Source: Siphonodentalium dalli (Eukaryota > Mollusca > Scaphopoda > Gadilida > Siphonodentaliidae). From it: a DNA stretch of 64,000 bases. Where the stretch lies: assembly GCA_032622095.1 (NCBI GenBank), contig CP136061.1, forward strand, positions 55,873,762 to 55,937,761, given 5' to 3'. Shown piece by piece: positions 5,406 to 50,515 of the stretch; the stretch's first letter is position 1, and every line of letters starts with the position of its first letter. Position numbers and translations under genes: made by a program. The notes under the pieces were generated by a model. The model worked only from the letters and a program-made list of their open reading frames with translations. It was not told where the DNA came from and ran no database searches.

Positions 5406-5945
5406 CTAACAAATGACAGACATTTTCAGATAAATAAAGGATAACTCTTGAACGGAAAATGTAAACAACCTCTTTTGAAAGTTATCATATTACCAAACCT
5501 ACATACCAAATTTCATTGAGATCCGATAACCCATGGTTGAGATATAAGAGCAGACGGACGGAAATCCAACATTTTCAAATAAACAAAGAGGGATAACTCT
5601 TGAACGAAAAATGGGAACAATATCAATGAAACCTGTTTTAAAAGCCCTCCTGATGCCAAACATGCATACCAAATTTCATCGAGATCCGATAACCCATGGT
5701 TGAGATATATGAGCAGACGGACAGAAATCCAACATTTTCAGATAAACATGGATAACTCTTGAATGGAAAATGTGAACATATGAGTGAACGTCAATGAACC
5801 CTCTTTTAAAAGCCCTCCTGATACCAAACCTGCATACCAAATTTAATTGAGATCTGATCACCCATGGTTGAGATATATGAGCGGCTGGACGGTCGGACGG
5901 CTGGACGGACACATGTAATCCAGTATCCCCCCCCCCATCTTTTGG
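5405..5945 (+). mobile_element. Pearl-like (Helitron-like) element, three core units
   Basis: Three tandem units of about 150-165 bp begin near 5421, 5570 and 5733 (CATTTTCAGATAAA...GGATAACTCTTGAA) and share ACCAAATTTCATTGAGATCC. They are followed by a GGAC/CGGAC tail (5882-5910) and a C-run (5926-5936). A tandem core followed by a GGAC-type tail is the organisation described for bivalve pearl elements, now usually treated as non-autonomous Helitron relatives. That family link is from general knowledge, not a search. Not protein-coding. Confidence 0.6.
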
Positions 5946-5984
5946 AATGGGAGTGTAATTAGGTTTGGATGGTACAGTAAGGCC

Positions 5985-13804: not shown

Positions 13805-14648
13805 CAGTCTAACAAAACTCAGACCGTGTTTCATTTCAATCAACTTACGGTCTGAAGACTCTCATGGTTAAAATTATTTCAAACGAGAGAAATCTAGCCA
13901 ATTCGCAGCAAGCGATGCGTTGGTTGACCAATGAATAGGTTCTTGCAAATTCAATTAACATTCACTATTTCATACAAGCCACACCCGCGACATTTGCCTG
14001 CAATCTCATGAAGTTATCATATAAACGACACGTTAGTGTCGCGTATCTTAACTGATCAAACGTCGTATGTCCAAAATCACAACTAACGTACGTTTATTCA
14101 TAATTGGGAAATGTTCAGACAGAACAAGTATACATGACAGAATTGTATTTGCAAAGATATTAAAAAAAATACTATTTTCTCCTAACCTACGGATATTACG
14201 TCACGTGCCAAATAAGGATAAATTTACAACTTCGTAGTAAATTCCAAGGTCGTATTGTAAACAAGGAGATGACGCAACATGACTGCGGTACAGCTCAATA
14301 AAATTTATATAGCGTGCTTATCGCTATAGCCTATATTGTCATTACATTGTTCTTTATTATATAGCATCTGAATTGCTAAACTTGTATTCTGCATGTACAG
14401 TGACGCAATTAACATTGAGAGCATTTTATTGCACGGAAGAAGAGTGACAACTCTTAAATGTTTACATGACCTCGGGCGCACGTGTGTAGATCTATGTGTG
14501 TATCGCAATGATAAACACTGCCGTATGAATATTAATGAGTTTTCACAAAAAAGGGAATATCCCCTTTATCTCTGAAATCAGATTCCGTGCGAGTGTCGTC
14601 AGACGTATTTGAAAGTAATGAGACGGAGTCTGGATATATATCAGACTG
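13805..14648. mobile_element. DNA transposon with 9-bp target duplication
   Basis: Inserted inside the pearl-like element. Left end CAGTCTAACAAAACTCAGAC and the complement of the right end CAGTCTGATATATATCCAGA are imperfect inverted repeats of about 35 bp. The 9-mer ATTTGAACT flanks both sides (13796-13804, 14649-14657). The 844-bp interior has no transposase. A 9-bp duplication is commonest in Mutator-like elements; an 8-bp hAT event with one matching neighbour base is also possible. Confidence 0.65.
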
Positions 14649-33195: not shown

Positions 33196-34120
33196 TCCCA
33201 GAATACTGAACCAAATCACAATAATACTGAGATTGTAATATGGCCTAGCAGCTGAAAGGAAGCTAAAACCCAGAATACTGAACCAAATCACAATAATACT
33301 GACATTGTAATATGGCCTAGCAGCTGAAAGGAAGCTAAAACCCAGAATACTGAACCAAATCACAATAATACTGACATTGTAATATGGCCTAGCAGCTGAA
33401 AGAAAGTTAAAACCAATAATACTGAACCAAATCACAATAATACTGACATTGTAATATGGCCTAGCAGCTGATAGGAAGCTAAAACCCAGAATACTGAACC
33501 AAATCACAATAATACTGACATTGTAATATGGCCTAGCAGCTGAAAGGAAGCTAAAACCCAGAATACTGACATTGTAATATGGCCTAGCAGCTGAAAGGAA
33601 GCTAAAACCCAGAATACTGACATTGTAATATGGCCTAGCAGCTGAAAGGAAGCTAAAACCCAGAATACTGACATTGTAATATGGTCTAGCAGCTGAAAGG
33701 AAGCTAAAACCAATAATACTGACATTGTAATATGGTCTAGCAGCTGAAAGGAAGCTAAAACCCAGAATACTGACATTGTAATATGGTCTAGCAGCTGAAA
33801 GGAAGCTAAAACCCAGAATACTGACATTGTAATATGGCCTAGCAGCTGAAAGGAAGCTAAAACCAATAATACTGACATTGTAATATGGTCTAGCAGCTGA
33901 AAGGAAGCTAAAACCAATAATACTGACATTGTAATATGGTCTAGCAGCTGAAAGGAAGCTAAAACCCAGAATACTGACATTGTAATATGGCCTAGCAGCT
34001 GAAAGGAAGCTAAAACCAATAATACTGACATTGTAATATGGCCTAGCAGCTGAAAGTAAGCTAAAACCAATAATACTGACATTGTAATATGGCCTAGCAG
34101 CTGAAAGGAAGCTAAAACCA
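33196..34120 (-). repeat. Minisatellite array, part 1 (72- and 51-bp units)
   Basis: About five 72-bp units (51-bp unit plus ACTGAACCAAATCACAATA) are followed by about eleven 51-bp units (ACTGACATTGTAATATGG...AGCTGAAAGGAAGCTAAAAC). Both lengths are multiples of 3 and the minus strand lacks stops. This makes long open frames at 33145-34239 and 33504-34148, which are not genes. Confidence 0.9.
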
Positions 34121-35381
34121 ACAAGAGATGGACTGTCGTCCGGTGCATACCCCCTCATGGCATACCGCCTAGTGTGGGCACATCTATAACTTATGATGGC
34201 TATACTCAGACATATGGACCCAGAAATCAGCATTTTCATATAAACAAAGATGAATAACTATAGAACAAAAAACCAAAACAAACATTTGAATGTGCCATTA
34301 ACTGTCCTCATAGTGGTGAACATCCATACAAAATTTCATTGAGATCCGAGCATTACTGTTCAAGTTATGAGCTGAACAGACATCGGATGGATCAAACAAC
34401 CAACATTTCCAGATAAACAAAGATGAATTACTCTAGAATGGAAAAGCAGAACAGAACAATGGAACCCCCTATTGAATGTCCTCATAGCAGTGAACATCTA
34501 TACCAAATTCCATTGAGATCCCAGCACAACTGTTGAAGTTACGACATGAAGACACCAGACGGACCAAAAAGCCAACATTTATTTCCAGATGAACAAAGAT
34601 GAGTAACTCTAGAATGGAAAAGCGGAACAAAACGATGGAACCCTCTTTTTAATGTCCTCATAGTAGTGAACATCCATACCAAATCCCATTGAGATCCCAG
34701 TACAACTGTCGAAGTTACAATATGAACAGACACCAGACGAACCAAAAAGCCAACATTTCCAGATGAACAAAGATGTATAACTCTAGAATGGAAAATCCGA
34801 ACAAAACGATGGAACCCTCTATTGAATGCCCTCATAGTAGTGAACATCCATACAAAATTTCATTGAGATCCGAGCACTACTGTTCAGGTTATGACATGAA
34901 CAGACACCAGATGGACCAAAACTCCAACATTTCAAGATAAACAAAGATGAATAACTCTAGAATGGAAAATCGGAACAAAACGATGGAACCCTCTATTTAA
35001 TGTCCTCATAGTTGTGAACATCCACACCAAATTTGGTTGAGATCCCAGCACAACTGTTGAAGTTACGACATGAACAGACACCAGACGTACCAAAAAGCCA
35101 CTATTTCCAGATAAACAAAGATGAATAACTCTAGAATGGAAAATCCAAACAAAACGATGGAACCCTCTATTAAATGTCCTCATAATAGTGAACATCCATA
35201 CCTAATTTCATTGAGATCCGAGCACTACTGTTCAAGTTATGACACGAACAGACATCGGACGGACGTACGGACGCACGCACGGACACACGCACGGACGGAC
35301 GCACAGACGGACGCACGGACGGACGGACGGACGGACAGGTGCAAAACAGTATACCCCCCTTTTTTTTAAAAAGGGGGTATA
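34121..35381 (+). mobile_element. Pearl-like (Helitron-like) element inserted in the array
   Basis: Six core units start near 34229, 34401, 34573, 34751, 34925 and 35099 (~174 bp each; ACATTTCCAGATAAACAAAG). They are followed by a GGAC/ACGC-rich tail (35256-35335) and a terminal hairpin ATACCCCCC...GGGGGTAT (35351-35380). Removing these 1261 bp restores a perfect repeat unit (ACCA|ATAATACTG), so insertion made no duplication longer than 2 bp, as expected for Helitron-like rolling-circle elements. No coding capacity. Confidence 0.75.
35256..35336 (+). repeat. GGAC/CGCA-rich microsatellite tail
   Basis: Runs of GGACGGAC and ACGCACGG. It marks the right part of the pearl-like element, and microsatellites in this position are characteristic of that family. 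Confidence 0.85.
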
Positions 35382-37335
35382 ATAATACTGACATTGTAAT
35401 ATGGCCTAGCAGCTGAAAGGAAGCTAAAACCAATAATACTGACATTGTAATATGGCCTAGCAGCTGAAAGGAAGCTAAAACCAATAATACTGACATTGTA
35501 ATATGGCCTAGCAGCTGAAAGGAAGCTAAAACCAATAATATTGACATTGTAATATGGCCTAGCAGCTGAAAGGAAGCTAAAATCAATAATACTGACATTG
35601 TAATATGGCCTAGCAGCTGAAAGGAAGCTAAAACCAATAATACTGACATTGTAATATGGCCTAGCAGCTGAAAGGAAGCTAAAACCAATAATACTGACAT
35701 TGTAATATGGCCTAGCAGATGAAAGGAAGCTAAAACCAATAATACTGACATTGCAATATGGCCTAGCAGATGAAAGGAAGCTAAAACCAATAATACTGAC
35801 ATTGTAATATGGCCTAGCAGCTGAAAGGAAGCTAAAACCAATAATACTGACATTGTAATATGGCCTAGCAGCTGAAAGGAAGCTAAAACCAATAATACTG
35901 ACATTGTAATATGGCCTAGCAGCTGAAAGGAAGCTAAAACCCAGAATACTGACATTGTAATATGGCCTAGCAGCTGAAAGGAAGCTAAAACCCAGAATAC
36001 TGACATTGTAATATGGCCTAGCAGCTGAAAGGAAGCTAAAACCCAGAATACTGACATTGTAATATGGTCTAGCAGCTGAAAGGAAGCTAAAACCAATAAT
36101 ACTGACATTGTAATATGGTCTAGCAGCTGAAAGGAAGCTAAAACCCAGAATACTGACATTGTAATATGGTCTAGCAGCTGAAAGGAAGCTAAAACCCAGA
36201 ATACTGACATTGTAATATGGCCTAGCAGCTGAAAGGAAGCTAAAACCAATAATACTGACATTGTAATATGGTCTAGCAGCTGAAAGGAAGCTAAAACCAA
36301 TAATACTGACATTGTAATATGGTCTAGCAGCTGAAAGGAAGCTAAAACCCAGAATACTGACATTGTAATATGGCCTAGCAGCTGAAAGGAAGCTAAAACC
36401 AATAATACTGACATTGTAATATGGCCTAGCAGCTGAAAGTAAGCTAAAACCAATAATACTGACATTGTAATATGGCCTAGCAGCTGAAAGGAAGCTAAAA
36501 CCAATAATACTGACATTGTAATATGGCCAAGCAGCTGAAAGGAAGCTAAAACCAATAATACTGACATTGTAATATGGCCTAGCAGCTGAAAGGAAGCTAA
36601 AACCAATAATACTGACATTGTAATATGGCCTAGCAGCTGAAAGGAAGCTAAAACCAATAATATTGACATTGTAATATGGCCTAGCAGCTGAAAGGAAGCT
36701 AAAATCAATAATACTGACATTGTAATATGGCCTAGCAGCTGAAAGGAAGCTAAAACCAATAATACTGACATTGTAATATGGCCTAGCAGCTGAAAGGAAG
36801 CTAAAACCAATAATACTGACATTGTAATATGGCCTAGCAGATGAAAGGAAGCTAAAACCAATAATACTGACATTGCAATATGGCCTAGCAGATGAAAGGA
36901 AGCTAAAACCAATAATACTGACATTGTAATATGGCCTAGCAGCTGAAAGGAAGCTAAAACCAATAATACTGACATTGTAATATGGCCTAGCAGCTGAAAG
37001 GAAGCTAAAACCAATAATACTGACATTGTAATATGGCCTAGCAGCTGAAAGGAAGCTAAAACCAATAATACTGACATTGTAATATGGCCTAGCAGATGAA
37101 AGGAAGCTAAAACCAATAATACTGACATTGTAATATGGCCTAGCAGCTGAAAGGAAGCTAAAACCAATAATACTGACATTGTAATATGGCCTAGCAGCTG
37201 AAAGGAAGCTAAAACCCAGAATACTGACATTGTAATATGGCCTAGCAGCTGAAAGGAAGCTAAAACCCAGAATACTGACATTGTAATATGGCCTAGCAGC
37301 TGAAAGGAAGCTAAAACCCAGAATACTGAATCAAA
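35382..37335 (-). repeat. Minisatellite array, part 2 (51-bp units, higher order)
   Basis: About 38 units of 51 bp. Marker variants (TTGCAATATGG at 35751 and 36873; AGCAGATG neighbours; AATATTGAC; AAAATCAATAAT) recur exactly 1122 bp apart = 22 units, a higher-order repeat. The marker GAAAGTAAGC at 34053 recurs at 36436, i.e. 1122 bp plus the 1261-bp insertion. The minus-strand 703-codon frame (35170-37281) is a product of the 51-bp period, not a protein gene. Confidence 0.92.
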
Positions 37336-50234: not shown

Positions 50235-50515
50235 TAATCATGACGGCATTGGCCCCTCTTTTGAAAGCAGTCATAATGGCGAAACTCTATTCTAAATTTC
50301 ATTCTGATCTGATAAACTGTTGGCGAGATCTGTCCAGACATACAGAAAGTTACTATTTCCAGAAGAACAAAGAAGGATAGCTCTAGAAAGGAAAACAACA
50401 TCATTGTGCCCTCTTTTGAAAGTACTCCCATTGCCAGACAGCCATGCCAAATTTCATTCAGTTACACCGGTATATACCCCCAATTTGTCTTATAAAGGTA
50501 ATGGTATAATAAAAT
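50235..50515 (+). mobile_element. Pearl-like element fragment
   Basis: One and a half core units (TTTCCAGAAGAACAAAGAAG, CCTCTTTTGAAAG, CCAAATTTCATTCAGTTACA) followed by TATATACCCCCAATT and ATAAAGGTAATGGTATA. Related to the 5.4 and 34.1 kb copies but without the GGAC tail. Confidence 0.4.

Follow-up and report, generated by a model that had tools for sequence, protein, structure and literature searches.

We identified the 1,261-bp element at positions 34121-35381 of the window, the 64,000-bp stretch of DNA analysed here (G000:C1:55873762-55937761), as what is very probably a HINE (a non-autonomous Helentron) on the minus strand: an internal-deletion derivative of a Helentron that would be moved in trans by the Rep of that Helentron. 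This assignment is based on ends shared with an autonomous Helentron, one copy of which has an open ORF, on empty sites of HINE and Helentron alike that show no duplication, and on a target consensus and recent amplification.

The Element Interrupts a Minisatellite That Holds Its Own Empty Site

The element is flanked by a host minisatellite which, by unit spacing on the plus strand, consists of 72-bp and then 51-bp units on the left (33197-34120) and of 51-bp units on the right (35382-37329). Removal of 34121-35381 (1,261 bp) makes the 51-bp array intact again, the unit spacings being 72 four times and thereafter 51 without interruption. A comparison of the array with itself, with the insert excised, gave 99.1% identity over 1380 bp at an offset of 1122 bp (22 units), compared to at most 97.4% at the other offsets tried, and over 614 bp to the left of the junction the second 22-unit block was matched without a single difference. 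In this second block (36474-36533, plus strand) the insertion site is unbroken at junction 36503/36504, with an identical 30 bp on the left and an identical first 25 bp on the right, and the array therefore holds its own empty site. Most simply, the insertion is younger than the 22-unit (1122-bp) duplication. The near-identical copies of this higher-order duplication extend over window positions 33507-35850.

The insertion flanks read ..AAAACCA(A) on the left and (A)ATAATACTG.. on the right, and the array unit is AAAACCAATAATACTG. Flanks and array unit overlap by AA at most, and the target duplication at this site is therefore 0 bp, or no more than two ambiguous bases. The original prediction had stated that the pre-insertion site is readable from the array, that the marker distance of 2383 equals 1122 + 1261 and that any target duplication is limited to 2 bp (AA). 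The comparison of the array with its second block bore out the first statement, the marker distance holds, and the comparison of flanks and unit confirmed the third. The two halves, on whose contiguity the prediction depended, are continuous at 51-bp spacing once the insert is excised.

Organization of the Element

Read along the minus strand, the element consists of a hairpin TATACCCCCTTTTT / AAAAAAAAGGGGGGTATA (35381-35350), a (GTCC)n tract, 174-bp repeats, AGGGGGTATGCACC, GGACGACAGTCC and ..ATCTCTTGT. This reading fits the published order of parts in HINEs, which is 5' subTIR, complementary IR, microsatellite, central repeats, 3' subTIR and palindrome (PMC4067079, PMC7492417), and the terminal hairpin is therefore the 5' end. 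Judged by this organization the element is on the minus strand, with its 5' end at 35381 and its 3' end at 34121.

The 5' subTIR and its complementary IR (TATACCCCCTTTTTAAAAAAAAGGGGGGTATA; 35350-35381, minus strand) form a hairpin that folds better than 200 out of 200 shuffled sequences (z -3.07) and is identical in the Helentron described below. Tandem Repeats Finder detected a (GTCC)n-type microsatellite adjoining the 5' end (35256-35336, minus strand), which has the same position in the Helentron and in the published Cg_HINEs (GTCY), and, in the center, a tandem array of 5.9 units of 174 bp (34231-35264, minus strand); of the same unit the Helentron has 6.8 copies that are about 86% alike. 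The 3' terminal segment of 99 bp (34121-34219, minus strand) is common to both elements and 89.9% identical in blastn. Direct reading of this copy-conserved end located the 3' subTIR AGGGGGTATGCACC (34142-34155, minus strand) and, 9 bp from the 3' terminus, the palindrome GGACGACAGTCC (34130-34141, minus strand), which is identical in the Helentron, so that the element ends as ..AGGGGGTATGCACC-GGACGACAGTCC-ATCTCTTGT|T at 34121. The palindrome has a 4-bp stem, and its folding by itself is not exceptional compared to shuffled sequences. The perfect subTIR match to the 5' end, ATACCCCCT, measures 9 bp in the HINE and 10 bp in the Helentron, compared to a commonly reported length of 11-15 bp.

The GGAC-rich tail and the C6T/AG5-type terminal hairpin of the original prediction are both real (35256-35336 and 35350-35381), but the hairpin marks the 5' end and not the 3' end. 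The rolling-circle (Helitron/Helentron) origin that had been proposed is supported by the autonomous Helentron and by the duplication-free empty sites, although the argument from a 3' hairpin was made at the wrong end. The term 'pearl-like' is borne out for the architecture.

Two other HINE sequences are present in the window. Positions 5420-5958 (minus strand) contain an older remnant whose repeats are 66-72% similar; it has a tract of the GTCC type, and its 5' end (TACACTCCCATTCC..GGGGGATACTGG), which is preceded by TAAT, is related. A further HINE fragment is located at 50334-50461.

Other Copies Share Both Ends and Are Inserted Without Target Duplication

The genome searched comprises 2.23 Gb in nine contigs. 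From 5,757 first-look candidates, 40 matches to the element at 96.6-100% identity were obtained, and 38 of these, the window copy included, are full-length copies with exactly the same two ends. Among the 38 full-length copies, neither TTAA nor any constant direct repeat of more than one ambiguous base was found at the borders, so that the comparison of copy borders proposed in the original prediction came out in its favor. At four loci (L005, L022, L029, and L032) the host sequence is a tandem or simple repeat, from which the longer chance repeats at the borders are derived. The ends do not recur by chance. The 38-bp end opposite the hairpin has 722 exact copies in the genome and the 34-bp 3' end occurs 2,663 times when up to three mismatches are allowed, while the reversed control patterns gave 0 occurrences in both searches; for one form of the 5' end, 798 occurrences were counted.

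With the microsatellite end excluded, the mean divergence of the 38 copies from their consensus is 0.23%, and that of the window copy 0.09%; because the copies were selected for similarity to the window copy, this estimate is biased downwards and is a lower bound for the divergence of the whole family. Judging by these values, the copies show a recent amplification burst of the HINE. A single HINE insertion, flanks included, is present twice, in L004 (C1) and in L013 (C6), probably as the result of an inter-chromosomal duplication.

In element orientation the flanks of the 38 copies follow the pattern TWAT|element|T. A T was present at position -4 in 38/38 copies, T or A at -3 in 37/38, A at -2 in 37/38, T at -1 in 38/38 and T at +1 in 34/38. 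At the window copy, the 5' junction reads ATTAT|T.. (35381-35386, minus strand), matching the target consensus TWAT|T, and the 3' junction, defined by the copy borders and the flanks, reads ..CTCTTGT|T (34120-34121, minus strand). Genome-wide, TTAT (338) or TAAT (233) stands before 571 of the 798 5' ends (71.6%). When the flanks of the insertion at L031 were joined, dozens of unbroken occurrences of the resulting sequence were found, 16 or more of them at 100% identity over 125 bp, and three of these empty sites that were read matched at 119/119 bases each. Further empty sites in tandem flanks were found for L005, L022 and L032. T-flanked insertion without target-site duplication, by which HINEs are recognized, was thus found both in the 38 copies and at the empty sites.

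These data bear on two alternative origins. Pearl-type elements were first classed as cut-and-paste MITEs, which would be accompanied by a TA, TTAA or longer duplication, and the short inverted motif between the ends, the small size and the high copy number are in line with such an element. A MITE is nevertheless extremely improbable here: a constant duplication is absent in the 38 copies, the empty sites are restored exactly with an overlap of 0-2 bp, which we count as already refuting it, and the inverted motif is asymmetric, being terminal at the 5' end and located about 21 bp inside at the 3' end. In addition, the coding relative of the element is a Rep/helicase. A retroposon, or a satellite fragment that expanded passively, would agree with the central satellite-like repeats, but has virtually no chance of being correct given the exact 5' and 3' ends in 38/38 full-length copies, the precise empty sites and the absence of both a poly-A tail and a duplication.

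An Autonomous Helentron Has the Same Termini

A search for an autonomous Rep/helicase element with the same termini, as suggested in the original prediction, was successful. The relative is a 14,383-bp Helentron on the minus strand of G000:C1:61516717-61531099 (C1:61.5 Mb). It contains a stop-free ORF of 2,347 amino acids (L059:2240-9280, minus strand) with Pfam matches to Helitron_like_N (1.6e-29), PIF1 (6e-26) and, at the C-terminus, Exo_endo_phos (7.2e-6), and the helicase matches Helraiser in the PDB. Motif 2 of the Rep, IEFQLRGSPHVH, agrees with the signature published for Helentrons, (V/I)ExQxRG(S/L)(P/L)HxH (PMC4067079), including the Helentron-type S. As in the autonomous Helentron class, a Rep, a PIF1 helicase and a C-terminal AP-type endonuclease are encoded in one ORF, together with a Helentron-type motif 2. 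The partner differs from this class in its 5' 174-bp satellite-like array and in an in-frame N-terminal array of a 23-amino acid repeat. The latter array, within the protein of L059:2240-9280 (minus strand), consists of about 16 copies of a charged repeat encoded by 69-bp units.

The 5' end of the Helentron, in L082, reads GTTAT|TATACCCCCTTTTTAAAAAAAAGGGGGGTATACTGTTTTGCACCTGTCC.. and is followed by the GTCC tract and the 6.8 repeats of 174 bp. This true end was found further upstream by walking past a homology break near A index 1341; the break itself and the repeated starts (L076-L081) had been considered as the 5' end and were rejected, as they belong to another dispersed family and to a truncated copy. 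Ten loci (L063-L072) terminate at the 3' base of the Helentron. Their flanks are for the most part unrelated, with L064-L066 having one flank in common and L069-L070 another, and always start with T. The empty site of the Helentron was found unbroken in three paralogues, at 120/120 bases each, and the whole 14,383-bp unit was therefore inserted in one piece without duplication. The Helentron is inserted in a repeat with an adjacent frame that encodes a retrotransposon-type integrase, and the three paralogues are copies of this repeat site. An open ORF is present in only one copy found of this Helentron subfamily; the other copies scored are broken, those on C5 by stops. L064-L066 are broken Helentron copies on C5 (223.98-224.45 Mb) with the same 3' flank and represent a local segmental duplication.

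The protein and the termini also speak to a derivation from a canonical Helitron or from Helitron2 instead of a Helentron. Canonical Helitron Reps appear abundant in the same genome, in which the Helitron_like_N matches form two groups. ORFs reach about 1,700 amino acids in the high-scoring group, which is regarded as canonical Helitrons, and are longer in the group with lower scores. The element resembles Helitron2 in having a palindrome at each end and an inverted repeat that is asymmetric. Such a derivation is nonetheless very unlikely, as the element ends in TATACC..CTTGT with T|T, in contrast to the TC..CTRR with A|T of canonical Helitrons, and as the partner has a C-terminal endonuclease and the Helentron-type motif 2, whereas Helitron2 has a Rep/helicase without endonuclease.

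The HINE Appears to Be an Internal-Deletion Derivative of the Helentron

Comparison of the window HINE with the Helentron showed identity at 60/60 positions over the first 60 bp and at 137/140 over the first 140 bp. At the 3' end, 57/60 positions (95%) of the last 60 bp are identical, where at least 80% was used to define the same subfamily, and both ends are thus shared. The HINE aligns to Helentron positions 1-1173 and 14285-14383, the two alignments overlapping by 3 bp where the break lies, and about 13 kb, including the Rep-helicase-endonuclease gene, is missing. From these alignments the window element appears to be an internal-deletion derivative of the C1:61.5 Mb Helentron or of a close relative. 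The divergence between the two is about 14% in the 5' parts with the repeats and 10% in the 3' 99 bp, and the exact parent may therefore be a sister copy. Since the 174-bp repeats are present in the autonomous copy, their capture by the HINE is not required. L069 and L072 represent a second kind of deletion derivative, with the same 5' end and repeats and with about 430-520 bp of Helentron 3' sequence, which in L069 begins immediately past the ORF stop.

On the basis of the shared ends, the C1:61.5 Mb Helentron probably moves the HINE. That this would be another Helentron family, the C1:61.5 Mb element being a mere relative with similar ends, was considered because many Helentron-like proteins with long open ORFs are present in the genome and because another HINE family (L081) also ends in ..CTCTTGT|T. 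Among six long-ORF loci surveyed over 18 kb, two had a match to the HINE 3' end (C1:214 Mb and C1:61.5 Mb). The match at C1:214 Mb (L054) was rejected as that locus's own end, because both HINE ends are found there 1.2 kb apart, and it represents an inserted HINE, while the match at C1:61.5 Mb is the end of the Helentron itself. None of the five other long-ORF loci (18 kb each) owns these ends, which, together with the identity of the first 60 bp to the C1:61.5 Mb element, makes another family an unlikely source. L081 itself belongs to at least one more HINE/Helentron family, with the 3' end GGGGGTATGCTAGCACTCGAGTGCACACCTCTTGT|T and a palindrome that differs; a 5' end TATACCCCCACTTTCGAAGAAAATGGGGGGTATAC in L075 may be of this family or of another.

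We infer mobilization in trans by the C1:61.5 Mb Helentron or its recent sisters; for the C1:61.5 Mb copy this is based on the shared ends, because only one open-ORF copy was found. The HINE retains the Helentron 5' end (subTIR, IR hairpin, GTCC microsatellite and 174-bp repeats) and the last 99 bp (3' subTIR, palindrome and ..CTCTTGT), and the Rep of the autonomous Helentron would act on it in trans. By analogy to HUH transposases, the Helentron protein is expected to use a single-strand rolling-circle chemistry. Its HUH/tyrosine domain would nick one strand at the 5' end and, aided by the 3' palindrome, at the 3' end past TTGT, after which the helicase would displace the cut strand and the displaced strand would be joined into a TWAT|T target without duplication.

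A tentative extension of this model, which we consider possible but doubtful, is that the Helentron Rep reads a single rule, TNNT|T, at all cut sites. Both TTGT|T at the 3' terminus and TWAT|T at the donor 5' end and the target fit this rule, which suggests, without proving it, that recognition is the same at each of them.

Comparison With Known Elements and Significance

HINEs, their Helentron partners and bivalve HINEs with central repeats were already known. HINE/DINE-1 elements (Thomas et al., 2014; PMC4067079) have the same parts as the window family, with a 5' subTIR and IR, a microsatellite, central repeats and a 3' subTIR with palindrome, show the same T-flanked insertion without duplication and have ends in common with an endonuclease-bearing Rep/helicase element. 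The window family differs from these in its subTIR match of 9-10 bp and in a strict TWAT|T target compared to one that is merely T-rich. Cg_HINEs of Crassostrea gigas (Vojvoda Zeljko et al., 2020; PMC7492417) have the same order of subTIR, IR and GTCY microsatellite on the left, followed by satellite-like repeats of 140-180 bp and by a 3' subTIR with palindrome, and are also inserted without duplication and with a preference for TT. The authors were unable to relate any autonomous Helentron to the Cg_HINEs (PMC7492417), whereas for the window family an autonomous relative was found that is itself repeat-bearing. Pearl elements of bivalves (Gaffney et al., 2003), as far as they are described in PMC7492417, have central repeats of about 160 bp in up to six copies and resemble the window element in architecture; according to that account, Pearl was later reclassified as a non-autonomous Helentron. 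A text search of the literature with words from the repeat sequence of the element returned nothing relevant.

What is new is that a HINE with central repeats and an autonomous Helentron matching it were found in the same genome, a link that was reported as unresolved for the oyster (PMC7492417), and that the target consensus is strict (TWAT|T), where the literature gave T-richness only. Under the extended TNNT|T model, a target would be chosen for its similarity to the site of cleavage, in the manner of IS91/IS608-type HUH transposases, and the 174-bp array would be a cis-acting part and not a captured passenger. With young copies and exact empty sites available for this HINE-Helentron pair, both cross-mobilization and the origin of the satellite-like arrays become directly testable.
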